This document shows positions 35,789 to 56,402 of a stretch of DNA of 64,000 bases, piece after piece. Position numbers and translations under genes: made by a program. Source of the DNA: a virus. The stretch spans positions 34,238 to 98,237 of the IMG/VR virus record IMGVR_UViG_3300021185_002756, one strand, 5' to 3'. Numbering within the stretch: position 1 is the stretch's first letter; each line of letters starts with the position of its first letter. The notes below the pieces were generated by a model. That model did not search any database and was not told the DNA's origin. It was given only the letters and a program-made list of their open reading frames with translations.

Positions 35789-36589
35789 ATGAAAATACAC
35801 TTTGATTTAATTTCTGATCTACATGTAGATACCTGGGACGAAGATTTCTCCTGGGAAGGAAAAGCAACCAGTCCTTATGCAGTGGTAATTGGTGATGTTA
35901 GTAGAGAACGTGCTGACATGCATCCTGTGCTGAAAGAAATTGCAAGTAATTATCTTATGACTATGTTTGTTGATGGTAACGATGAACATCGATGGGGATT
36001 AGATGATCTACGCATCAGTTATGAAACACTTACAGAAGACATTGGCGAAATAGAAAACTTTATATGGCTTAAAGATGATTGTTTGGTAATTGACAATGTG
36101 GCTTTTGTTGGCACAAACGGTTGGTGTTCGTATGATTTTGGACTAGGCGAATCAAATCAAGCATATACAGATTGTAAAGAATGGACAAAATCCACATACA
36201 AAGTATCTATGTGGGCACTACAACAAGTAGAAGCAATGGCAATGAGTGATGCAGGTTTCTTATGTAGAACAGTGAAAAAGTTGCAAACCCATCCTGATAT
36301 AACAAAAATAGTAATGCTTAGCCATTTTGTACCTGATGCTCGATTACTTAAACATGATGTACACTTAGATAGTACACACCGTTTAGGCACAACTGGCAAT
36401 AGTTTTCTCACAAAATGTATAGAAGAAGATCATGAGAAGAAGATTGATACTTGGTGCTTTGGACACTATCACAGTGATATAGAGCAACAACTAGATGGAA
36501 TACGTTATTTAAACAATGCTAGAGGACGCGGCGGCACAGAATGGTGTAAGCCAGTTTACTATCCTAAACGCATTGAAATTGACTTTTAG
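35789..36589 (+). CDS. Calcineurin-like metallophosphoesterase
   Basis: The 266-residue protein has all family motifs: SDLHVD (D-x-H, near 10), VIGDVSRE (GD-x-x-x, near 34), DGNDEH (GN-(D/H)-E-H, near 58), LSHFVPD (near 178) and FGHYHSD (GHxH, near 221). These bind two metal ions. Phage relatives may be protein phosphatases or nucleotide phosphodiesterases. It has a very short leader and no strong ribosome site. It converges with the radical SAM gene, overlapping by 4 bases. Confidence 0.85.
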   Translation: MKIHFDLISDLHVDTWDEDFSWEGKATSPYAVVIGDVSRERADMHPVLKEIASNYLMTMFVDGNDEHRWGLDDLRISYETLTEDIGEIENFIWLKDDCLVIDNVAFVGTNGWCSYDFGLGESNQAYTDCKEWTKSTYKVSMWALQQVEAMAMSDAGFLCRTVKKLQTHPDITKIVMLSHFVPDARLLKHDVHLDSTHRLGTTGNSFLTKCIEEDHEKKIDTWCFGHYHSDIEQQLDGIRYLNNARGRGGTEWCKPVYYPKRIEIDF

Positions 36590-38073
36590 TTTATGTTTCT
36601 AATTGGGATAATACGCATCTTATTAAACTTGTAGGCTTCGACGTGTCCTTTAATTGTTTTAAGACGTTGCACACCTCTATGTATAGGCCATTTATATTTT
36701 ATCGCTTCGTTATGAACTTCTAACCGTCTACGTATTCGTTCTTCAAAAGTAAGATCAGGATTTGCTTTACTAGTCCACACTAACCTATTAATAGTTTCAC
36801 TACCGTCGGCATTGTATGCTTTTGTTGGAAACACTATTCCATGACTATCGATCATACGTTCAAGTGGTGTGTTTACCATAAACTGTAAACTTGTACTAAG
36901 ATCAATGCCTGCTATTGTGCCAGTTGCTACATACTTTTGCCAACGAGCATACATTGCAAGGTTATCTTTGTGATCTTGAAGTGTTTCTGTATGGTATCCT
37001 ATTATCATTAAATAGAAACATCTTAGTCCTACTCTTCGAAAATGTTCTAAATGATAATCTATATCTTCATTGGTAAACTTTTTGTCCATCTCCCACCGTA
37101 TTTTGTCACTGCCAGTTTCAATTCCAACATAAAACTGATCTCCACCGGCTTGTGATATCATATCAAAATAATCATCAGTAATAGTTTTCTTCTGTTTAAA
37201 AATAAACTGGCCGCCCCATTTAAATCCAGCTTTATGTGTTTGATTGTAAATTGCTAACTTGTTGCACATGTCTCTAAATGCTTTAAGACTGCCATTAATT
37301 AAACTGTCAGTAAAGTAGAACTGGCTGATTCCATGTTTTTCATAGTAGTTTATCATTTCATCTGCAATATTTTGTCCACTGCGATATCTAAATTTTGGCC
37401 AGTATGCGGCAACATCACAATAGGTGCATTTACGTACACATCCTCTGCTGCCAACTATGTTTACTTCACGTCTATCACTATAAAGATAGTCGTATTTGTC
37501 AAAATTTACATCGCTATAGTCCGGAAAACTTTTTGTATTCAAATCACTGACTTGAATCTGTGTTGATTCATTATCTATTCCAGGATAATCTGTATTTCCT
37601 TTTAACAACTCAATTAATGCCTGTTCACCTTCACCGTACACTACATGGCTACATAAACTTGTTTCTAGCATATAACTACCAAATCCTTTTGTACAACCCA
37701 TACCACCTAAAACTATTTCACAGTCTGGATAATACTGTAGTATAAGTTCGCAGGAATGTTTTGTAAACAATTGACTGTTGCCTGTAAAAACACTTATTAG
37801 TACCCTTGTATTCACATCACAGTGTGGAAGTAAATGCTCAACTATAAAGTTTCTTATATTGTGAATTTCTTCTTCAGTAGGTTCTCGAGTTTTTTCCCAT
37901 ACATCTACATATGAATAGTATTCTCTCTCGCCCCAGTCGTTGTACATTTGGATATTTAGGTCTATGCAACTTACTTCGTGTCCTTCACCATGCATTATAC
38001 CTGCTAAAAGAGCAGTTGACACAGGCGGCCGATGAACTTCAAGTTGAGGTACTGCGACTAGTAAATTTTTCAT
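36586..38073 (-). CDS. Radical SAM protein with B12-binding-like N-terminus
   Basis: The 495-residue protein has the 4Fe-4S radical SAM motif CVRKCTYCDVAAYWPKFRYR (C-x3-C-x2-C, near 210). The preceding 200 residues look like a cobalamin-binding Rossmann domain (CEIVLGGMGCTKGF). FYVGIETGSDKIRWEMDKKF and FYLMIIGYHTETLQDH fit the TIM-barrel strands. Such enzymes often do methylthiolation, methylation or ring chemistry. The substrate is unknown. It overlaps the next gene (38070) by ATGA. Confidence 0.85.
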   Translation of the reverse strand: MKNLLVAVPQLEVHRPPVSTALLAGIMHGEGHEVSCIDLNIQMYNDWGEREYYSYVDVWEKTREPTEEEIHNIRNFIVEHLLPHCDVNTRVLISVFTGNSQLFTKHSCELILQYYPDCEIVLGGMGCTKGFGSYMLETSLCSHVVYGEGEQALIELLKGNTDYPGIDNESTQIQVSDLNTKSFPDYSDVNFDKYDYLYSDRREVNIVGSRGCVRKCTYCDVAAYWPKFRYRSGQNIADEMINYYEKHGISQFYFTDSLINGSLKAFRDMCNKLAIYNQTHKAGFKWGGQFIFKQKKTITDDYFDMISQAGGDQFYVGIETGSDKIRWEMDKKFTNEDIDYHLEHFRRVGLRCFYLMIIGYHTETLQDHKDNLAMYARWQKYVATGTIAGIDLSTSLQFMVNTPLERMIDSHGIVFPTKAYNADGSETINRLVWTSKANPDLTFEERIRRRLEVHNEAIKYKWPIHRGVQRLKTIKGHVEAYKFNKMRIIPIRNIN

Positions 38074-38603
38074 ATCTTTAATATTTCTTTTATCTCGTCC
38101 ATTAATTCTTTATGGTCGTCATAGTAGTTGCGACTCTCATAATCACTAAAATAACTTACTGTGCGAGTTTCATCACCTGTGGTGTTAGCAAGATCAATTA
38201 TCCAATTATATGGATTATCGTTTGTGTCAATTTGCCAGTAACCATTGAATCTAATTGTTTGATCAAAAGTAGTGGTCGTGCCTTGCTCGACACTGTTGTA
38301 TGGTAACTTGTGTAAATAGTGTTCAAAATTTACATCATTTAGAGATATATTTTTCAGTACAATGTACTTATCAGCAGTAATATTTCCGTTGTCGTCTAGG
38401 CAGGTATCCCAAACGTCATTTGCCCCAAAAGATTTATTTTTCATACCAATTGTAAAAGGTTTGTCTTCAATTTGCATATCTACTTTCTGCGAATTGATTA
38501 CGAACTCTTCGTATATTATTTTATTATTTTGTTTTATTGTAAATTTTGGCCATGAGTTGCAATAGAAACCTTCAATTTCCATTTCAAGATGCATGTCATA
38601 CAT
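38070..38603 (-). CDS. Unknown beta-rich protein
   Basis: The 177-residue protein appears beta-rich (YCNSWPKFTIKQNNKIIYEE, KYIVLKNISLNDVNFEHYL, TIRFNGYWQIDTND) with a short helical end. Similar proteins are found in marine phages near radical SAM genes (from memory). It lies between radical SAM and ClpS genes and overlaps both (ATGA at the start, and an 8-base overlap with clpS). Possibly a substrate or carrier of the radical SAM enzyme. Confidence 0.6.
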   Translation of the reverse strand: MYDMHLEMEIEGFYCNSWPKFTIKQNNKIIYEEFVINSQKVDMQIEDKPFTIGMKNKSFGANDVWDTCLDDNGNITADKYIVLKNISLNDVNFEHYLHKLPYNSVEQGTTTTFDQTIRFNGYWQIDTNDNPYNWIIDLANTTGDETRTVSYFSDYESRNYYDDHKELMDEIKEILKI

Positions 38604-38901
38604 CCGGCTCTAGTTTAACTTGTAAAGGAAATCCAGCACCTCGTGCCATCACAGTGACTTCAACTCCTTTTTGTTCTGCCATTTCGTAAGGTAGAACTGC
38701 TACCACTGCACTGCCTTTTTCATGTATATCCAACATAATTGTTTCAGCAGTTTCTGCTTTGTAACTAAACACTTCCATTAACGTTTTGATTACAAACTCC
38801 ATCGCAGTTTCATTGTCGTTGACATATATCAACTTAAATAGATTTGGTTCCTTGAGTTGTGTGTCAACTATAATCCGTGTACCTGGTTCTGCGTTGGTCA
38901 T
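38596..38901 (-). CDS. clpS: ClpS-like adaptor of the Clp protease
   Basis: The 101-residue protein matches ClpS: FKLIYVNDNETAMEFVIKTL (ClpS has Y-x-V-x-x-x-N-D-D-x-T-P-M-x-F-V), then MLDIHEKGSAVVAVLPYEMA (ClpS: M-x-x-V-H-x-x-G-x-x-x-x-G) and a C-terminal strand. The ND pair and the His that bind N-degron amino groups are present. ClpS delivers N-degron substrates to ClpAP. Here it is near phage Hsp20 and ClpX. The N-terminal extension is about 23 residues. Confidence 0.87.
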   Translation of the reverse strand: MTNAEPGTRIIVDTQLKEPNLFKLIYVNDNETAMEFVIKTLMEVFSYKAETAETIMLDIHEKGSAVVAVLPYEMAEQKGVEVTVMARGAGFPLQVKLEPDV

Positions 38902-38920
38902 TTACTCTCTCTATGTTTAT

Positions 38921-38950
38921 TATTAGTGAAGAGTTTCCCCTCCACTAATA
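38921..38950 (-). terminator. Hairpin between hsp20 and clpS
   Basis: TATTAGTG (38921-38928) and CACTAATA (38943-38950) are perfect 8-base arms around a 14-base loop. It lies after the Hsp20 stop and 20 bases before the clpS ATG. No clear T-tract follows on the minus strand, so it may be a processing or attenuation hairpin rather than a full terminator. Confidence 0.4.
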
Positions 38951-38961
38951 CTTATCGTTGG

Positions 38962-39405
38962 TTATTTGATTTCAATAGTTTTTGGCTTCAATGCTTCTGG
39001 AACTATTTTTTCTAAGTTAATTCTTAGTACTCCGTCTGTCATTGTTGCACCTGTAACCTTTACATGTTCTGCTAGGTTAAAGGTTCTAGTGAAGTTACGT
39101 TGTGAAATACCTTTGTGCAAGTATTCAATGCCGTTGGCTTCATCTTCGCCGTCGACCTTCTTTGGCTGATTGCCAGTGATAGTCAATGTACCATTTTCCA
39201 TTTCTACACTAACATCTGCTTTAACAAAACCAGCTGCCGCTATTTCTATAGTGTACAACTCATCACCAGTACGTATAATATTGTAAGGTGGATAGTTCTG
39301 TTGTGATGCCGTATCAATATTGCTTGTAATTCTATCAAACAGTTGATTGAATCCAATTGAGTTACGGTAAAATGGGTTTAGGTCGAGTGAGGTTATTCTT
39401 GTCAT
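38962..39405 (-). CDS. Small heat-shock protein (Hsp20/IbpA family)
   Basis: The 147-residue protein is a typical alpha-crystallin-domain chaperone: NIIRTGDELYTIEIAAAGF, then VSVEMENGTLTITGNQPKKV, then ISQRNFTRTFNLAEHVKVTG, then LRINLEKIVPEALKPKTIEI. It resembles Hsp20 proteins of marine T4-like phages. AGGAG precedes the ATG at 39405 and a TATAAATA box lies 71 bases upstream. It prevents aggregation of unfolded proteins, probably during virion assembly. Confidence 0.93.
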   Translation of the reverse strand: MTRITSLDLNPFYRNSIGFNQLFDRITSNIDTASQQNYPPYNIIRTGDELYTIEIAAAGFVKADVSVEMENGTLTITGNQPKKVDGEDEANGIEYLHKGISQRNFTRTFNLAEHVKVTGATMTDGVLRINLEKIVPEALKPKTIEIK

Positions 39406-39475
39406 TTTTTTCTCCTTTATAAAAGCAAGATTTAAATGTAAGTCCTATTAAGCAACTTACAATATTATTTATACA

Positions 39476-39483
39476 CGGAAACT
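39476..39483 (-). promoter_or_regulatory. T4-type late promoter motif TATAAATA
   Basis: Perfect TATAAATA on the minus strand. The resulting leader of about 65 bases holds GTAAGT/ACTTAC and a small hairpin at the ribosome site of hsp20. Confidence 0.6.
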
Positions 39484-39504
39484 GGTACATTGTAAAGAGT
39501 TTTG

Positions 39505-39550
39505 GTAAAAAAAAGTTGCAAGGAAATGAATAAAAAAACCTTGCAACTTT
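39505..39550 (-). terminator. Intrinsic terminator after the FG-GAP lipoprotein gene
   Basis: On the minus strand AAAGTTGCAAGG (39539-39550 complement) pairs perfectly over 12 bases with CCTTGCAACTTT (39512-39523 complement), followed by a T-run into 39505. The loop is T-rich. Confidence 0.85.
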
Positions 39551-39588
39551 ATTGTTAGAAGGGATAGGAGTCCCTTGTCAAATTTTGA

Positions 39589-41931
39589 TTAGAATGACCA
39601 AGTGTACTTTACACTAGCATTCTTATCACCGCTTTGACTTACGGCAGTACTAACTTTGATCTTAGTATTAGTATCTAAGACAAAGTCGTAATTTGCTTTC
39701 AAGTAACCATTTACGTGTGTTGGCAACTTGAATTTATGTTCTGTGTACTGTAGGTTACCTCTCATGTCAACACTAGTAGGAACGTTTGCTTTAACATTAC
39801 CTTTTAGCATCACAGGATGTACTCCAGCACCAAGTTCTAAGCCACCTTTTTTGTAACCTAGCTCTGTCCATGCACCTACCTGATCACTTACATCAGTTAC
39901 CAAACCTTTAGTAAAGTTTGTTTTAACATGCATAAGACTGGCTTTAGCAGTAAATCCACCTTGTTTGTAACTTACAACACTGTCAACAATGTTAGTGTTT
40001 TCAACTTCGCCCCATACACCTGAGAAGCCCATCCAAGGATTACTGTTTAACTTTGACATATGCACACTGTATGTTGTACCATCACCAGTTTCTTCGTCTG
40101 CATTAGACCACATGTTGTAGCCCATTGTAAACTGTTGTGACTCGTTGTCAACACCTACAGTAACACCATCAGCAGTTCTAGTGTTAAAACTAGCAATACT
40201 GTTGAACATTACTGCACCGTCTGTGTCAATATTGGTAGGAGCAAGATTCACTGCATAGTTTCTGCCAATGCCGTCTAGTGCTTGTCCTGTAACATTACCA
40301 ACATCAAAACCATACACACTACCATTTAGAGCTAAGCCATTCATCTGCAATGTACCAATTGGTTGGAATGCTTTGTTGATATCAATTATTGTACCACCTG
40401 CAAATGCTTGTCCAGTATCAACTAGTGCTTGAGTGGCTTGTGCATCACTCAAGTAACTCCATGCATTCTGTATCATGTTTACGGCAGTTCCAGCGGCAAT
40501 AGTTGTGCCATCTAATTTACTCATGAACACAGTGATATTTGTATCAGCACCGCTAAGTGCAGTACTTGCCCATGTTACAAGATACTTGTTACCATCATCA
40601 CCTGTAAAGATATTAACAGTACTACCGTTAGTTGTATTACCACTTATACTTGCAACATCAGTTATAAAACCTTTCAAAACATTCTGATAGGCCGCAACAT
40701 ATTTGTTATCAGTAGTTTTAAGTAAGAACTGATGACTGTCTTGTCCATCACCGTTGCCGTACTCACTACCACTCACAAGTATATCTGTTTTGCCATCGCC
40801 ATTTATGTCAAAGAATCTTGGCTTGTATGTACTTGCAGTATCTGTTTTGTATCCTATAAGTGTGGAACTTGTAGTATCTGTGAAGTTACCACTACCATCG
40901 TTCTGTAAAAACTGTATCTCACTAAGTTCGGTGTTCCAGTTACTACTTGTTCTACTGAACACAATAACATCTGCATTACCATCTTCGTTATAATCATGAT
41001 TGACTACTCTTACATGGTGATCACTATTTGCACTGTTTGCCGCTGCAGGTAAATCTGCAATCCAAGTGTATTTTACATCACCATTACTAAAGTCTACACT
41101 GTACATTTTAGTGTCATTAGTATTACTACAACTGGCCGCAGTTCCATTTGTTGGACAAGCAGCATCTGTAATAATGATTTCGTTGTTGCCACCGTTGTTC
41201 ATAAAATTACCAATAGTTGCACCTGAACCACCAAAACGTAAATCACCTGCTTGTCCACGTGAGTCTATCTTTGTAGTGAATCCATTAACTTGATTGTTTA
41301 GTGCTACTGTACTATTATAACCATAGTCTAACATGAATATGTCTTTGTATCCATCGTTGTTTAGATCGCCAACATCACTGCCATGTGACCAAATGTTTGC
41401 TGTTGGAATACTTACTTTTGTAAAGTTTGATCCGTTGTTCTTAAAAAACGTAGCAGGACCATATGATGCTCTATCTGTACTGTGCGAAACAAACATATCT
41501 TGCTTGCCAGTATTAAAGAAGTCTGCAAATTTTACATCAGGCTCTGTACCTATAATCACGTTGTCTGTGCCTGAGAACCATTGTGAAGTTTTGTCAACCA
41601 TCTGCCCATTCTCAAACGAATGCACACTGAGTCTATTACTGTTTGTGTTACCATCAAATGGCATTGTTTCTCTGCCTGCAATAACCATGTCATCACTGGC
41701 ACCATCGCCATCTAGGTCGGTAATAAATGTATCACCTACAAATGGTGAATTTTCGTTGCCACCAGCAAATACATCTACAGTTGCCTGTGCAACTGGTCTT
41801 TGATATACTAAACTTACGCCTGGATTATTGGTGTAGCCACCTCCGCCACCACCTCCGCCACCTCCGCCACAAGCGGAAAGAGCAGTTGCACCTAGTAAAG
41901 CCACAATTAGTTTGTTATTTGATTTTTTCAT
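39589..41931 (-). CDS. Large FG-GAP/VCBS-repeat outer-membrane-type lipoprotein
   Basis: The 780-residue protein starts MKKSNNKLIVALLGATALSA-C (lipobox LSAC, Cys21) followed by eleven consecutive Gly. Calcium-binding FG-GAP/VCBS-type segments recur (DLDGDGASDD, DLNNDGYKD, DYNEDGNAD, DINGDGKTD). The last about 250 residues are beta-barrel-like and end in an aromatic residue (VKYTWSF). This layout is typical of surface adhesins or autotransporter-like proteins of marine alphaproteobacteria rather than of phages. It has its own early-type promoter and a strong terminator. It is probably displayed on the host surface; a virion adhesin is a less likely alternative. Confidence 0.8.
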   Translation of the reverse strand: MKKSNNKLIVALLGATALSACGGGGGGGGGGGYTNNPGVSLVYQRPVAQATVDVFAGGNENSPFVGDTFITDLDGDGASDDMVIAGRETMPFDGNTNSNRLSVHSFENGQMVDKTSQWFSGTDNVIIGTEPDVKFADFFNTGKQDMFVSHSTDRASYGPATFFKNNGSNFTKVSIPTANIWSHGSDVGDLNNDGYKDIFMLDYGYNSTVALNNQVNGFTTKIDSRGQAGDLRFGGSGATIGNFMNNGGNNEIIITDAACPTNGTAASCSNTNDTKMYSVDFSNGDVKYTWIADLPAAANSANSDHHVRVVNHDYNEDGNADVIVFSRTSSNWNTELSEIQFLQNDGSGNFTDTTSSTLIGYKTDTASTYKPRFFDINGDGKTDILVSGSEYGNGDGQDSHQFLLKTTDNKYVAAYQNVLKGFITDVASISGNTTNGSTVNIFTGDDGNKYLVTWASTALSGADTNITVFMSKLDGTTIAAGTAVNMIQNAWSYLSDAQATQALVDTGQAFAGGTIIDINKAFQPIGTLQMNGLALNGSVYGFDVGNVTGQALDGIGRNYAVNLAPTNIDTDGAVMFNSIASFNTRTADGVTVGVDNESQQFTMGYNMWSNADEETGDGTTYSVHMSKLNSNPWMGFSGVWGEVENTNIVDSVVSYKQGGFTAKASLMHVKTNFTKGLVTDVSDQVGAWTELGYKKGGLELGAGVHPVMLKGNVKANVPTSVDMRGNLQYTEHKFKLPTHVNGYLKANYDFVLDTNTKIKVSTAVSQSGDKNASVKYTWSF

Positions 41932-41939
41932 TGTAAAGT

Positions 41940-41991
41940 CTCCTATTCTCTAACAATATAAACAGTATAGCACAGTATTAGACATTGTCAA
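41940..41991 (-). promoter_or_regulatory. Shared promoter-leader module, copy 6
   Basis: TTGACA (41986-41991), 16-base spacer, TATACT (41964-41969), and GTTAGAGAATAGGAG (41940-41954), directly before the ATG of the FG-GAP lipoprotein. The -35 lies inside the 3' end of the next gene upstream. Confidence 0.78.
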
Positions 41992-42211
41992 CCTTTTTAT
42001 TCATATCGGCGTATTCACGTCTATAACTGTGTATTAGTTCTTCTGTTTCTTTATTTGCAAAGATACCAATGTCATTGATAGGATCGTACTCTATGTAACT
42101 ACGTCTGTCATGCACAGGATGTATGAAGTCAGGCAGACCCCAAACTCTTACTGCACTTACGTACTCATAGCCTCTAAAACCAAAAAAATGAACTTGTTTA
42201 CCTTTATACAT
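41978..42211 (-). CDS. Small unknown protein, possibly leaderless
   Basis: I prefer the ATG at 42211, 7 bases after the -10 hexamer, where transcription would begin; an in-frame ATG at 42217 lies even closer to it. The 77-residue product (MYKGKQVHFFGFRGYEYVSA, then VWGLPDFIHPVHDRRSYIEY) has a basic, aromatic N-terminal half and a helical end (KETEELIHSYRREYADM). No ribosome site is visible. Function unknown. Confidence 0.55.
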   Translation of the reverse strand: MYKGKQVHFFGFRGYEYVSAVRVWGLPDFIHPVHDRRSYIEYDPINDIGIFANKETEELIHSYRREYADMNKKVDNV

Positions 42212-42217
42212 ACACAT

Positions 42218-42246
42218 AGTATAACCGTATTGTGCAAAAAGGTCAA
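42218..42246 (-). promoter_or_regulatory. Sigma70-type promoter with almost no leader
   Basis: TTGACC (42241-42246), 17-base spacer, TATACT (42218-42223) on the minus strand, immediately before in-frame ATGs at 42217 and 42211. Confidence 0.6.
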
Positions 42247-42259
42247 CCTTTTTTTGGTT

Positions 42260-43468
42260 TTAGGCAGCAATTTTTGTAGGATATTTTACTAATTCAGTCG
42301 TGATTTCAACTTCAGTAATTTTTTGTTTTGCATATTCTTTTAAACTAAACATATGCGGCATTAGAATACGTTCAAGTTCTGCTTGTAAACTTCTTGCACC
42401 AGTTTTTCTTTTTGAAGCATTGGTTGCTATTTCTAGTAGTGCCTCATCACTAAAACGTAACTTCACTCCATCTGTTTCGAATAGATAGGTATATTGTGCA
42501 ATTAGACTATTACGTATTTCTGTTAGTACATGTACTAGTTGTTCTTTTGTGAGTTCTGTTAAGCCCACCCATGTTGGAAATCGTCCAACAAATTCTGGAA
42601 TCATACCAAATTTTACTAGATCATCTGGTTCAAGATCATCTAGTTTTCCTTGATCCGTTGTTTTTACATCAACGCCAAAACCAATTCCTGAGCCTTCGGC
42701 ACGACGTTTAATAACTTCGTTAATACCAACAAAGGCTCCGCCAGCAATAAACAGTATATTGCTTGTATCAACTTCGACCATTTCTGCTTGTGGATTTTTT
42801 CTGTTGGCTCCAGGAAGTGGCACTCTACACACTGTACCTTCTACTACTTTTAACAATGCCTGTTGTACACCTTCACCACTAACATCACGTGTAATACTTG
42901 TATTTTCGCTTTTACGTGATATTTTATCAACTTCATCTAAAAATATTATACCTTGTTGACACTTTTCAACATTGCCACCTGCATTGCTTAATAGTTTACC
43001 AATTAATGTTTCTACATCATCTCCGACATAACCAGCTTCTGTTATGCTTGTTGCATCTGTTACAGCAAAAGGAACATCTAAATACCTGGCTACTGATTTT
43101 GCAAGTAATGTTTTACCGCAACCTGTTGGTCCTAATAGCAATACATTTGCTTTATCCAATTCTAAATCTTTTGATGTGTTGCTTATTCTTTTATAATGAT
43201 TTGCAACTGCGACAGATAATGTTATTTTTGCATCTTCTTGACCAACTACATATTTGTCAAGAAATACTTTCAATTCTACTGGATCTATGTCTTTGAAATT
43301 TAAAGGTTTTACTGTATTGCGAGCTAGTTCTGTAAGCAAATCACCGCATAAATTAACACACTCATTGCATATGGCTACACTATCCCCAACTATGAGCTTT
43401 TCGACGTCGTTCTTGGCTTTATTACAAAAATTACACTTGTCGTATTGTTCTTTATCTGCGGTTGCCAT
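42260..43468 (-). CDS. clpX: ClpX, ATP-dependent unfoldase of the Clp protease
   Basis: The 402-residue protein has the full ClpX layout: N-terminal zinc-binding domain (Cys12, Cys15, Cys34, Cys37); Walker A GPTGCGKT (113-120); the GYVG pore loop (146-149); Walker B IIFLDEVDK (174-182); an RKN sequence (223-225) where E. coli ClpX has RKH; and an intact IGF loop (262-264), which docks on ClpP. The sensor-2 region TGARSL is present. Length is near normal (about 420). No ClpP gene is in the window, so it would have to use host ClpP or act alone as an unfoldase. It is coupled by overlap to the membrane coiled-coil gene upstream. Confidence 0.95.
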   Translation of the reverse strand: MATADKEQYDKCNFCNKAKNDVEKLIVGDSVAICNECVNLCGDLLTELARNTVKPLNFKDIDPVELKVFLDKYVVGQEDAKITLSVAVANHYKRISNTSKDLELDKANVLLLGPTGCGKTLLAKSVARYLDVPFAVTDATSITEAGYVGDDVETLIGKLLSNAGGNVEKCQQGIIFLDEVDKISRKSENTSITRDVSGEGVQQALLKVVEGTVCRVPLPGANRKNPQAEMVEVDTSNILFIAGGAFVGINEVIKRRAEGSGIGFGVDVKTTDQGKLDDLEPDDLVKFGMIPEFVGRFPTWVGLTELTKEQLVHVLTEIRNSLIAQYTYLFETDGVKLRFSDEALLEIATNASKRKTGARSLQAELERILMPHMFSLKEYAKQKITEVEITTELVKYPTKIAA

Positions 43469-52319: not shown

Positions 52320-52966
52320 TTACCTATCCTTTCCTTATAGTGTGTTGCTAACATCTCTCCCCAAATAGTACTATCTGATTCGGACCAATGCCAAAGATCA
52401 TTTTCATTTGGTTGGATACCGTTTGATAGATACCATTCTCTCATACAACCATTCAGATCATAAGGCATAAAAAATGTGCCTTGCCAGTCTAGTTGCTTAT
52501 CGCCTTGCATACCTACAAAGTTATCATAGGTAGTCCAAAACTGATGCGGTATTTCCATATCAGTCATTCGTATGTGAACATTGTATATTAATTCGTGCCA
52601 AAAGTCACGCATGTCTTGTATAGCACTATCTGTCATTCCATTACGCCATTTATAGTAACGTTCTTCCAAATCTTTTGGTACAGGAAAATGTGGACCAATA
52701 CATACTGATATATCTTGTCCTTCCCATTCCCATTCTTCTCTTTCCCACTGTGTCCAACCAACAAAGAATACTGGATCATCATACTGATCAATGGCATCTA
52801 ATGCTTTGTTTACATGTTCAAGCACCCAGTGATTACTTGCTCCACCTCTGCCCCATACTACTGCTTCTCCATGTCCAATTGCACGTGAAAAAGCATGCGA
52901 GCAATTCCCTTTGTGTATTTTCATGCCTGGCAAAATGTTACTATCGCCAATGGCAAGTACGGTCAC
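52316..52966 (-). CDS. SGNH-hydrolase-like protein
   Basis: The 216-residue protein begins MTVLAIGDSNILPG (GDS block), has a later WGRGGASNHWV (Gly block), VFFVGWTQWERE and ends with NDLWHWSESDSTIWGEML, which may hold the last-block His. The family members are esterases or acyl hydrolases acting on carbohydrates or lipids, or inactive relatives. It is inserted between glutaredoxin and nrdB with ATGA overlaps on both sides. Confidence 0.6.
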   Translation of the reverse strand: MTVLAIGDSNILPGMKIHKGNCSHAFSRAIGHGEAVVWGRGGASNHWVLEHVNKALDAIDQYDDPVFFVGWTQWEREEWEWEGQDISVCIGPHFPVPKDLEERYYKWRNGMTDSAIQDMRDFWHELIYNVHIRMTDMEIPHQFWTTYDNFVGMQGDKQLDWQGTFFMPYDLNGCMREWYLSNGIQPNENDLWHWSESDSTIWGEMLATHYKERIGK

Positions 52967-54087
52967 AGACTAAATCCTGCAAAGCTGTTTTTATCTACGT
53001 CTTGTTTTGTTCCGCCGTTTACATAACTGGTTATTTCAGTTTCTTGTGGAGCAACTTGTACATCGCCACCTGCAATCCACTTTTGTGTCCAAGGTAATGG
53101 ATTACTTGCACCTTTGTAACTGCTCGGGACACCAACTGCCGTCATACGTTTGTTTGCAATCCACTGTACATATTCTTTGAGCAACTGTGCATTAAGTCCA
53201 ATCATTGATCCGTCTTTGAACAAGTAATCCGCCCATGCACATTCTTGTTCTACTGCATCTTCAAACATCTTAATTACAAGTGGTTCACACTCTGCTTTAA
53301 TTTTTACAAAGTCTGGATCATCTTGCGGAAGTATCTTCATTAGTTGTTGTGTACTTGCTAGGTGTACATTCTCATCACGTGCAATAAACTTGATAATTTT
53401 AGCATTACCTTCCATCTTCTTAAGTTCAGCAAATGCCCAACTACACGCAAAGGATACATAAAAACGTACACCTTCTAAGATGTTTACACTTGCCAAACAA
53501 ATCCACAGTTTCTTTTTAAGTTCGTATAGATCAATTTTAACTTTCTTACCGTTTACTGTGTGTGTACCTTCACCTAGTAGGTTGTAGTAACTGCAAGTTT
53601 CTACTAAATCATCATAGTATGCAGTGATGTCTTCCCCACAGTCAATGATCTCCTGTATGTCCATCATCTCATCAAACACCTTGCTTGGGTTTGCATACAC
53701 ATTACGGATGATGTGTGTGTAACTTTTTGAATGTATTGTTTCACTAAACGTCCAAGTGATAATCCAGTTTTCCAACTCAGGCAGACTTACAATAGGACCA
53801 AATGCTTCAATTGGTGCTCTACCTTGCACACTATCCAATAAGATTTGTCTTTTTAAATTGCTAGTAAAGATATGTTTTTCGTTCGTAGTAAGTTCTTTGA
53901 AGTCTTTTGCATCACGTAGTACATCTACTTCTTCTGGTCGCCAAAAGAATCCCAACTGTTTGTCAGTAAGTTTATCAAACTGTCGATACTTTAGTGTGTC
54001 ATAACGTTGTATACCAACTCCGCCCGCTGGATCTAAAAATGCAAGACTGGTCGTATGGTCTCTATTGGCTGTATTCAATACACTCAT
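52963..54087 (-). CDS. nrdB: Ribonucleotide reductase small subunit NrdB (class Ia)
   Basis: The start is the ATG at 54087 (AGGA upstream); the frame extends to a TTG at 54108 overlapping nrdA. The 374-residue protein has SETIHSKSYTHIIRNVY (the radical Tyr lies in SYTH, as in E. coli NrdB), an iron-site Glu in this motif and in LEGVRFYVSFACSWAF, and IARDENVHLASTQQL (Glu and His). It holds the diiron-tyrosyl radical. It lies 8 bases after the nrdA stop. Confidence 0.95.
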   Translation of the reverse strand: MSVLNTANRDHTTSLAFLDPAGGVGIQRYDTLKYRQFDKLTDKQLGFFWRPEEVDVLRDAKDFKELTTNEKHIFTSNLKRQILLDSVQGRAPIEAFGPIVSLPELENWIITWTFSETIHSKSYTHIIRNVYANPSKVFDEMMDIQEIIDCGEDITAYYDDLVETCSYYNLLGEGTHTVNGKKVKIDLYELKKKLWICLASVNILEGVRFYVSFACSWAFAELKKMEGNAKIIKFIARDENVHLASTQQLMKILPQDDPDFVKIKAECEPLVIKMFEDAVEQECAWADYLFKDGSMIGLNAQLLKEYVQWIANKRMTAVGVPSSYKGASNPLPWTQKWIAGGDVQVAPQETEITSYVNGGTKQDVDKNSFAGFSL

Positions 54088-54095
54088 TGTGTTTC

Positions 54096-56402
54096 CTATA
54101 TTGTGCAACTATCGCAGGCTTCTTCATACATCGGCTCTTCGATAGTAATTTCTTTTTGTTGTGTTTCGTTCATTTTGTCTATGTCAATTTCTCCAGCACC
54201 ATCAAATGTGTTGAAGTAATACAACTGCTTGTGTCCATATTTATAACATAGTAGCAGATGTTGTAGCATTACACTCATTGGTATCTTTTCATCTTCATAG
54301 TGTACGGGGTTGTAAGACGTGTTTACACTTATACCTTGATCAATATATTTTTGCATAACTGCCATTATCTTTATGTAACCCTCTGGAGACTTTTGATCCC
54401 ATAGTAGTTCGTATTTGTTTTTGTAACGTGCGAATCCTGGCACAACCTGTTTAAGTACACCATCTTTGCTTTGCTTGATACTTACAAATGCCCTCGGTGG
54501 CTCAATACCGTTTGTACTGTTGCTTATCTGTGCTGATGTTTCTGCAGGCATAAGAGCCATCAGTGTTGAGTTACGTATGCCAGTTTCTCTAAGTTGTGTT
54601 CTCAACCCTGTCCAGTCAACTGCATCTATATGTACTACTAATTCGTCAACATCCTTTTTATATGTGTCAACAGGTAATATTCCATCAGAATACTTTGTTT
54701 CATTATTCATCGGACATGCACCAAACTCTTCTGCAAGATCTGCACTTGCTTTTATCAAGTAGTAACTCCAATGTTGTGCCCAAGTATCCACTAGTTTGAG
54801 TGCATCTGGATCTGAATAACTGGTGTCGTTCTTTGCTAAAAAGTATGCAAGATTAATAATACCAACACCCAATGGGCGTCTACCTTCTGTTGCCATTTGT
54901 GCGGCAATAATAGGATAGTTTTGATAACTTAACAGTGCATCAAGTCCACGCACTGCTAGTGTACAGGCTTTTTCCATGTCTTCAGGATTTGTAAAACTAC
55001 CCCAATTGATGGCACTCAATGTACACAATGCTATTTCACCTGTAACATCATTTATATCATCTAGAGGCTTGGTTGGCAAGTCTATTTCACAACACAAGTT
55101 ACTTTGTTTGATTGGTGCAACATCAGTTTTGAAACTGCTATGTTCATTTGCATGATCCACATTTTGCAAGTATATTCTTCCTGTGTCTTTACGTTCTTGC
55201 ATAAACGCACTAAAAAGTTCCGTGGCACTTATCTTCTTCTTACGTATACTTGTTTTACGTTCTGCAGCTTCGTATAGTTCACGGAACTTATCTTGGTCAG
55301 CAAAGAATGCGTCGTATAATCCTGGAACATCATTTGGAGAGAACAGTGTAATATCTCCACCACTCATCAAACGTTCGTACATTAGTTTGTTAAACTGTAC
55401 ACCATAGTCCATGTGTCTAACTCTGTTGTCTTCTGTGCCTTTGTTATTCTTTAACACTAACAAGTCTTCAACTTCTAGATGCCACAGTGGATAATAAAGT
55501 GTTGCCGCTCCGTTACGCACTCCACCTTGCGAACAACTACGTGTGGCCGCTTGGAACATTTTATAAAATGGCACAACGCCTGTGTGATAAGCATCACCAT
55601 TTCTAATAGGTGATCCTAATGCTCTAATACGTCCACCGTTGATACCAATGCCTGCTTTTTGTGAAACGTATTTTACAATTGAACTTGCAGTTGCATTTAT
55701 ACTATCCAAACTATCATCGGTTTCAATTAGTACACAACTTGAAAACTGTCTTTGTGGTGTACGAACACCTGCCATTACTGGAGTGGGTAAACTGATTTGG
55801 TGTGTTGAAATAGCATCATAGTAATCTTTTACATAACGCAGTCTGTTTTTGCGATCATAGTCTTGAAACAGTGTGGCGGCTATAAGCATGTATGCCATCT
55901 GCGGAGTTTCATAAAGTGTTTTTGTTACTCTGTTTTGCACAAGATACTTGCCACGAAACTGTTCCATGGCCGCATATGTCAGTTGTTCATCACGTTCATG
56001 TTTTACCCAACTGTTGATGGTATCCCATTCTTCTTCAGTGTATTCGCTTAACAGTTCTGCATCATAGAAACCCTTTTCAACATTGTGTTTTACAAGTTTG
56101 TAAATATGCCACGGCGTTGCACCACCATAAACCATTTTGTTAATATGATATACAATAAGTCTACCAGCAACTGTTTGATAGTTTGGTGTTTCTTCAGATA
56201 TTAAATCAGCGGCACTTTTTATAAGTGTTTCTTGTATGTCTGTACTTGAGATGCCATCATAAAACTGTACGTTACTGCTTATTTCAACTTGGCTTGCACT
56301 TACTCCTGTTATATTCTCTGTTGCCCACCAAACTACTTTGTGTAATTTTTCAATGTCTAATGCTTCTTTACTTCCGTCTCTTTTGGTAACTTGAATTGTC
56401 AT
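54096..56402 (-). CDS. nrdA: Ribonucleotide reductase large subunit NrdA (class Ia)
   Basis: The 768-residue protein has an N-terminal ATP-cone-like region (IQVTKRDGSKEALDIEKLHK), FSSCVLIETDDSLDSI (active-site Cys), NLCCEIDLP, GACPMNNETKY, LMPAETSAQISNSTNGIEPP, and the C-terminal redox pair CDSC in EACDSCTI. It reduces NDPs to dNDPs with NrdB and glutaredoxin encoded just downstream, giving a complete phage RNR set. Confidence 0.96.
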   Translation of the reverse strand: MTIQVTKRDGSKEALDIEKLHKVVWWATENITGVSASQVEISSNVQFYDGISSTDIQETLIKSAADLISEETPNYQTVAGRLIVYHINKMVYGGATPWHIYKLVKHNVEKGFYDAELLSEYTEEEWDTINSWVKHERDEQLTYAAMEQFRGKYLVQNRVTKTLYETPQMAYMLIAATLFQDYDRKNRLRYVKDYYDAISTHQISLPTPVMAGVRTPQRQFSSCVLIETDDSLDSINATASSIVKYVSQKAGIGINGGRIRALGSPIRNGDAYHTGVVPFYKMFQAATRSCSQGGVRNGAATLYYPLWHLEVEDLLVLKNNKGTEDNRVRHMDYGVQFNKLMYERLMSGGDITLFSPNDVPGLYDAFFADQDKFRELYEAAERKTSIRKKKISATELFSAFMQERKDTGRIYLQNVDHANEHSSFKTDVAPIKQSNLCCEIDLPTKPLDDINDVTGEIALCTLSAINWGSFTNPEDMEKACTLAVRGLDALLSYQNYPIIAAQMATEGRRPLGVGIINLAYFLAKNDTSYSDPDALKLVDTWAQHWSYYLIKASADLAEEFGACPMNNETKYSDGILPVDTYKKDVDELVVHIDAVDWTGLRTQLRETGIRNSTLMALMPAETSAQISNSTNGIEPPRAFVSIKQSKDGVLKQVVPGFARYKNKYELLWDQKSPEGYIKIMAVMQKYIDQGISVNTSYNPVHYEDEKIPMSVMLQHLLLCYKYGHKQLYYFNTFDGAGEIDIDKMNETQQKEITIEEPMYEEACDSCTI

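Follow-up and report, generated by a model that had tools for sequence, protein, structure and literature searches.

The ClpX, Hsp20 and ClpS genes of this virus appear to be a single segment of a Clp toolkit that belongs to the phage itself and has been passed down within a lineage of large aquatic phages. This toolkit probably comprises ClpXP and ClpAP-ClpS, with a phage ClpP as the primary partner of ClpX and host ClpP as a possible one. The window, meaning the whole 64,000-nucleotide stretch of DNA that was analysed, spans positions 34238-98237 of a virus record 98237 bases long. An earlier note on this DNA favoured a takeover of host ClpP by the phage ClpX, a reading that was based on a truncated contig and is corrected here; relatives of the virus encode their own ClpP and ClpA. 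A locus of ClpX, bS21, Hsp20 and ClpS, with ClpP and often ClpA elsewhere in the genome, is a standing feature of this group of large aquatic phages. The features found at the locus in the window are as follows.

38070-38603, minus strand: ORF without a family match, 177 aa, overlapping ClpS by 8 bases
38596-38901, minus strand: ClpS adaptor, 101 aa (PF02617, E 3e-24; PDB ClpS, E 8e-15)
38962-39405, minus strand: Hsp20 small heat-shock chaperone, 147 aa (PF00011, E 4e-16; phrog_432, E 4e-39)
39589-41931, minus strand: FG-GAP protein, 780 aa, between ClpX and Hsp20 (Pfam FG-GAP_3, E 3e-18)
41978-42217, minus strand: ORF without a family match in Pfam or PHROGs, 79 aa, between ClpX and Hsp20
42260-43468, minus strand: ClpX unfoldase, 402 aa (Pfam zf-C4_ClpX, AAA_2, D2-small)

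ClpX, Hsp20 and ClpS lie where the earlier note placed them, all on the minus strand, and their family assignments were confirmed, with matches for each in PHROGs by profile search as well. The ClpX gene product exhibits a nearly full-length PDB match to ClpX (E 1e-123), and its start overlaps the stop of an upstream 727-aa ORF by 1 base. The Hsp20 of the window contains the alpha-crystallin domain (PF00011; phrog_432). The genes of the Clp locus share one strand and are mostly separated by short gaps, but the 79-aa and 780-aa ORFs separate ClpX from Hsp20. A promoter scan identified 37 promoters against 37.6 expected from shuffles and is thus uninformative on operons. The 780-aa FG-GAP protein carries a lipoprotein-type signal (LSAC followed by poly-G) and is found between ClpX and Hsp20 only in the close clade of the window (orthologues in L007, L008 and L011). 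It ends in Phe, and its C-terminus resembles that of an outer-membrane beta-barrel, which may indicate such an end; its structure model reached a pLDDT of 31. Other genes were observed around these loci. The same phage encodes two radical-SAM proteins whose B12-binding matches are weak (window 36586-38073, minus strand, and L002 9569-11461, minus strand), and the minus strand of L001 (15784-19899) encodes a protein of 1371 aa that combines a class-3 lipase domain with Ig-like repeats. The large and small ribonucleotide reductase subunits, NrdA and NrdB, are encoded close to the Clp cassette (window 52963-56402, minus strand), as they also are in PA5oct.

Alignment to E. coli ClpX located the following motifs in the ClpX of the window.

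43358-43435, minus strand: zinc-binding cysteines C12, C15, C34 and C37
43109-43132, minus strand: Walker A, GPTGCGKT
43022-43033, minus strand: pore-1 loop, GYVG
42932-42937, minus strand: Walker B, DE
42794-42802, minus strand: RKN at the position of the E. coli RKH loop
42677-42685, minus strand: IGF loop, the ClpP-docking tripeptide

All of these motifs had been called in the earlier note, and all are present in the alignment; the pore-2 region and the GAR sensor-2 are also kept. Across phage ClpX sequences, the IGF glycine is found in 73/73 and the Phe in 72/73. Via its intact IGF loop, the ClpX of the window should therefore in principle be capable of docking on a ClpP, and this part of the earlier pairing claim stands (IGF kept, omega about 0.06), while borrowing of host ClpP as the leading reading does not. 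The suggestion that RKN specially retunes substrate choice in this phage was not borne out, because the RKN loop is common to several relatives and to Sinorhizobium phage Phosso. The AlphaFold model of ClpX has a mean pLDDT of 74, falling below 50 in the IGF (residues 261-270) and pore-loop regions, and a PDB search with it returned ClpX chains at a TM-score of about 0.5. The model supports the fold but, given the low confidence in the IGF region, is uninformative on ClpP docking.

The ClpS of the window keeps the N-degron pocket (N34, D35, T38, M40, V43, M62, I65, H66 and L99) as well as E79 and K84, which we take to be the contacts to the ClpA N-domain; position Y37 is occupied by E. Among the phage ClpS sequences of viral loci L007-L086, M62T is found in 59/62 and M40Y in 17/62, whereas the window has Met at both positions. 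These changes in the relatives suggest an altered N-degron preference. Nei-Gojobori estimates of omega against relatives, which are rough since many dS values exceed 1, were 0.054-0.067 for ClpX, 0.057-0.145 for ClpS and 0.035-0.22 for Hsp20. All three genes are intact and under strong purifying selection.

To place the locus among other viruses, 80 viral loci, several of them near-duplicates, were retrieved by their ClpX. In all 69 of the loci that hold both Hsp20 and ClpS, these two genes lie downstream of ClpX on the same strand in the order ClpX-Hsp20-ClpS, with median gaps of 499 bases between ClpX and Hsp20 and 17 bases between Hsp20 and ClpS; the other 11 of the 80 have little sequence downstream of ClpX. 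Because the same order and strand recur in 69/69 other viral loci, the clustering of the three genes is not due to chance, and the proteostasis cassette described in the earlier note is upheld as a conserved arrangement. A short bS21-like ORF, named from the PA5oct annotation, is present between ClpX and Hsp20 in 57 loci including PA5oct, and the 79-aa ORF of the window fills the slot in which most relatives have bS21. A model built from 11 bS21-like ORFs found no bS21 in the record of the window or in the examined part of its 328-kb relative G001. The same interval holds other genes in some relatives, named by sequence inspection. Four loci encode a DnaK there (L019 9719, L037 9521, L046 9522 and one more), which is full-length at 617-637 aa and takes the place of the FG-GAP protein of the window. 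Three loci encode IscU-, IscA- and deformylase-like ORFs in this position. The IscU-like protein of L085 (9956) is 466 aa long with an apparent intein-like insert after a conserved Cys, the homologue in L073 (10443) being 128 aa, and IscA- and peptide-deformylase-like ORFs lie close to the IscU-like gene in L085.

A ClpX phylogeny, proposed in the earlier note as a check, was run as a quick maximum-likelihood tree. The ClpX of the window falls in a 27-row phage clade (SH-aLRT 100) apart from the 26 bacterial rows; the placement of SCTP-2 and PA5oct, which form long branches, is unsure. The nearest bacterial ClpX proteins are 49-56% identical to that of the window, and phage contigs reach up to 90%. 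Phage ClpP likewise forms one clade of 21 rows (SH-aLRT 99), with phage G outside it. ClpX also occurs in unannotated 'phage' records from Escherichia, Staphylococcus, Listeria and Enterococcus, which were not counted as phage evidence. A ClpS match in 'Acinetobacter phage MD-2021a' (L006, CAKLQF020000008.1) was rejected, as it lies on a bacterial-type contig with clpS-clpA, argC and rpiA; this record may be mislabelled. It is very improbable that the Clp genes are recent host captures without a settled role. Each protein does have bacterial homologues, but the best bacterial ClpX is just 49-56% identical, the ClpX of the window sits in a phage-only clade, and an omega of about 0.06 is coupled with a conserved gene order.

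The 98-kb record is a fragment, its protein matches being collinear with 129-220 kb of G001, and absences in it carry little weight for this reason. The earlier note was correct that ClpA is absent from the window, and a profile search found none in the whole 98-kb record; a Pfam search of this fragment found no ClpP either. G001 encodes a full-length ClpA at 125.4-127.7 kb, just past the part shared with the record, and a ClpP at 88 kb, outside the shared part. The contig IMGVR_UViG_3300021185_003860 overlaps the left end of the record by exactly 127 identical nucleotides and contains an open 766-aa ClpA that begins about 1.07 kb further along, in a position collinear with G001. Cutting the graph of a de Bruijn assembly produces just such an exact 127-base overlap of ends. 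Contig L369 shares 2742 identical bases from the left end of the record but has a different 95 nucleotides upstream, so strains diverge at this end and the join with 3300021185_003860 is probable, not proven. No ClpP was seen on any contig joined to the record. The picture of a ClpS lacking its ClpA partner is not the favoured one, given the ClpA genes of relatives and the one on the overlapping contig.

The records compared are mostly incomplete, and gene absences among them are therefore weak. Pfam ClpP was identified in 16/17 records (E down to 1e-83), the exception being the fragment of the window, and the ClpP-bearing records include the named phages PA5oct and Phosso. Most records encode a second, diverged S14 peptidase besides ClpP, which may be a prohead protease. 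The Ser, His and Asp triad is present in 22/22 phage ClpP sequences, and their docking-pocket positions, following the list that we take to define the pocket, are largely as in bacteria. ClpS was found in 17/17 records and Clp_N in 11/17. The Clp_N ORFs of the relatives are 742-831 aa long and align with E. coli ClpA over almost the whole length (E about 1e-175); that of G001 contains the Clp_N, AAA, AAA_lid_9, AAA_2 and D2-small domains. The phage ClpA proteins carry IGF in 11/11, whereas E. coli ClpA has IGL. ClpP also adjoins the Clp cassette in G007 and G009. The metagenome 3300020463 holds both the cassette closest to that of the window (L007, ClpX 90% identical) and a contig with ClpA and ClpP (G018); this is a co-occurrence of separate contigs, possibly from different genomes.

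On the favoured reading, a phage ClpX hexamer would unfold substrates and pass them into a ClpP barrel, which is most likely that of the phage itself and encoded elsewhere in its genome. Phage ClpP is the likeliest partner of ClpX because ClpP was found in every other record tested, and from this we infer that this very phage has a ClpP. The natural partner of the phage ClpS is predicted to be phage ClpA; ClpS would pass N-degron substrates to it, and the IGF loop of ClpA would likewise dock on ClpP. Hsp20 probably keeps proteins in solution as they unfold, ready for refolding or degradation. Overall, this would provide additional protein quality control and selective proteolysis under phage control during infection. 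Mutual assembly of the phage Clp subunits and their choice of substrates likewise belong to what we infer. With a virus that has its own regulated protease and N-degron adaptor, it would become testable whether phages use proteolysis against host proteins, defence proteins or their own early proteins.

Other arrangements were weighed against a toolkit centred on phage ClpP. The phage and bacterial ClpP pockets are alike, so host ClpP could serve phage ClpX equally well as a docking partner, and mixed complexes of phage and host Clp subunits are possible. A scenario in which host ClpP and host ClpA are the primary docking partners of ClpX and ClpS, so that host proteolysis is redirected, is nonetheless unlikely. 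The intact IGF loop and ClpS E79/K84 are compatible with this arrangement, the 98-kb record lacks ClpP and ClpA, and a survey of jumbo phages that lists ClpP, ClpS, ClpA and ClpX proposed that phage ClpS feeds host ClpAP (PMC7824862); against it, relatives including the collinear sister G001 have their own ClpP and ClpA, and a ClpA is found on the contig overlapping the left end of the record. It is quite improbable that ClpX works chiefly on its own, as a remodelling chaperone in phage replication or virion assembly, and that ClpP is incidental. Such a role has been proposed for jumbo phages (PMC6102473, PMC7824862), and clpX is close to topoisomerase genes in Phosso and SCTP-2, but the ClpP-docking IGF loop is kept in 72-73 of 73 phage ClpX proteins, and all the other records tested encode a ClpP. 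A stricter form of the phage-owned toolkit, orthogonal to the host system, in which ClpX and ClpA prefer phage ClpP and ClpS reads shifted N-degrons, is tentative and somewhat doubtful.

Compared with the E. coli ClpXP and ClpAP-ClpS systems, the core ClpX motifs, the ClpS pocket and the ClpA-contact residues are all present in the window. The ClpX of the window is 52% identical to that of E. coli with RKN in place of RKH, its ClpS differs at D36N and Y37E, and the E. coli gene orders clpP-clpX and clpS-clpA differ from the order in the window. Among phages, Bacillus phage G encodes ClpP and ClpX in adjacent genes, though both fall outside the clades of the window in the trees. In Salicola phage SCTP-2, about 0.4 kb separates ClpX from ClpS, but no Hsp20 is annotated between them. 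Sinorhizobium phage Phosso encodes a ClpX with the RKN loop, a ClpP, and a ClpS near Hsp20; unlike in the window, its ClpX lies 16 kb from Hsp20/ClpS, and no Clp_N match was found in this phage. Agrobacterium phage Atu_ph07 has been described as encoding seven Clp-family proteins, with ClpX, ClpA, ClpB, ClpP-like and ClpS genes (PMC6102473). This Clp set is similar to that of the lineage of the window, but its ClpX is apart from Hsp20/ClpS. In a 2022 study of phage bS21, the genes counted within ten of bS21 include those for Hsp20 (127) and for two families of Clp protease (50 and 47) (PMC9723584).

The closest known arrangement is that of Pseudomonas phage vB_PaeM_PA5oct (Arenbergviridae, MK797984), which encodes ClpX, bS21 and two ORFs, a heat shock protein and ClpS on one strand. 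ClpP and ClpA are annotated further along this genome, ClpP with a mass-spectrometry note; the text of the PA5oct paper contains no discussion of Clp. The PA5oct ClpX differs in being 41% identical to that of the window and in having no RK loop, and where PA5oct has bS21 in the gap, the window instead has the 79-aa ORF and the FG-GAP lipoprotein. A profile search found no FtsH of the PA5oct type in the record of the window. The ClpX-Hsp20-ClpS order with ClpA and ClpP was thus already annotated in PA5oct, and the window shows the same order of the three genes; what is new here is that truncation is corrected for, that the order holds strictly over many contigs, and that genomes with the locus also encode ClpP and often ClpA.
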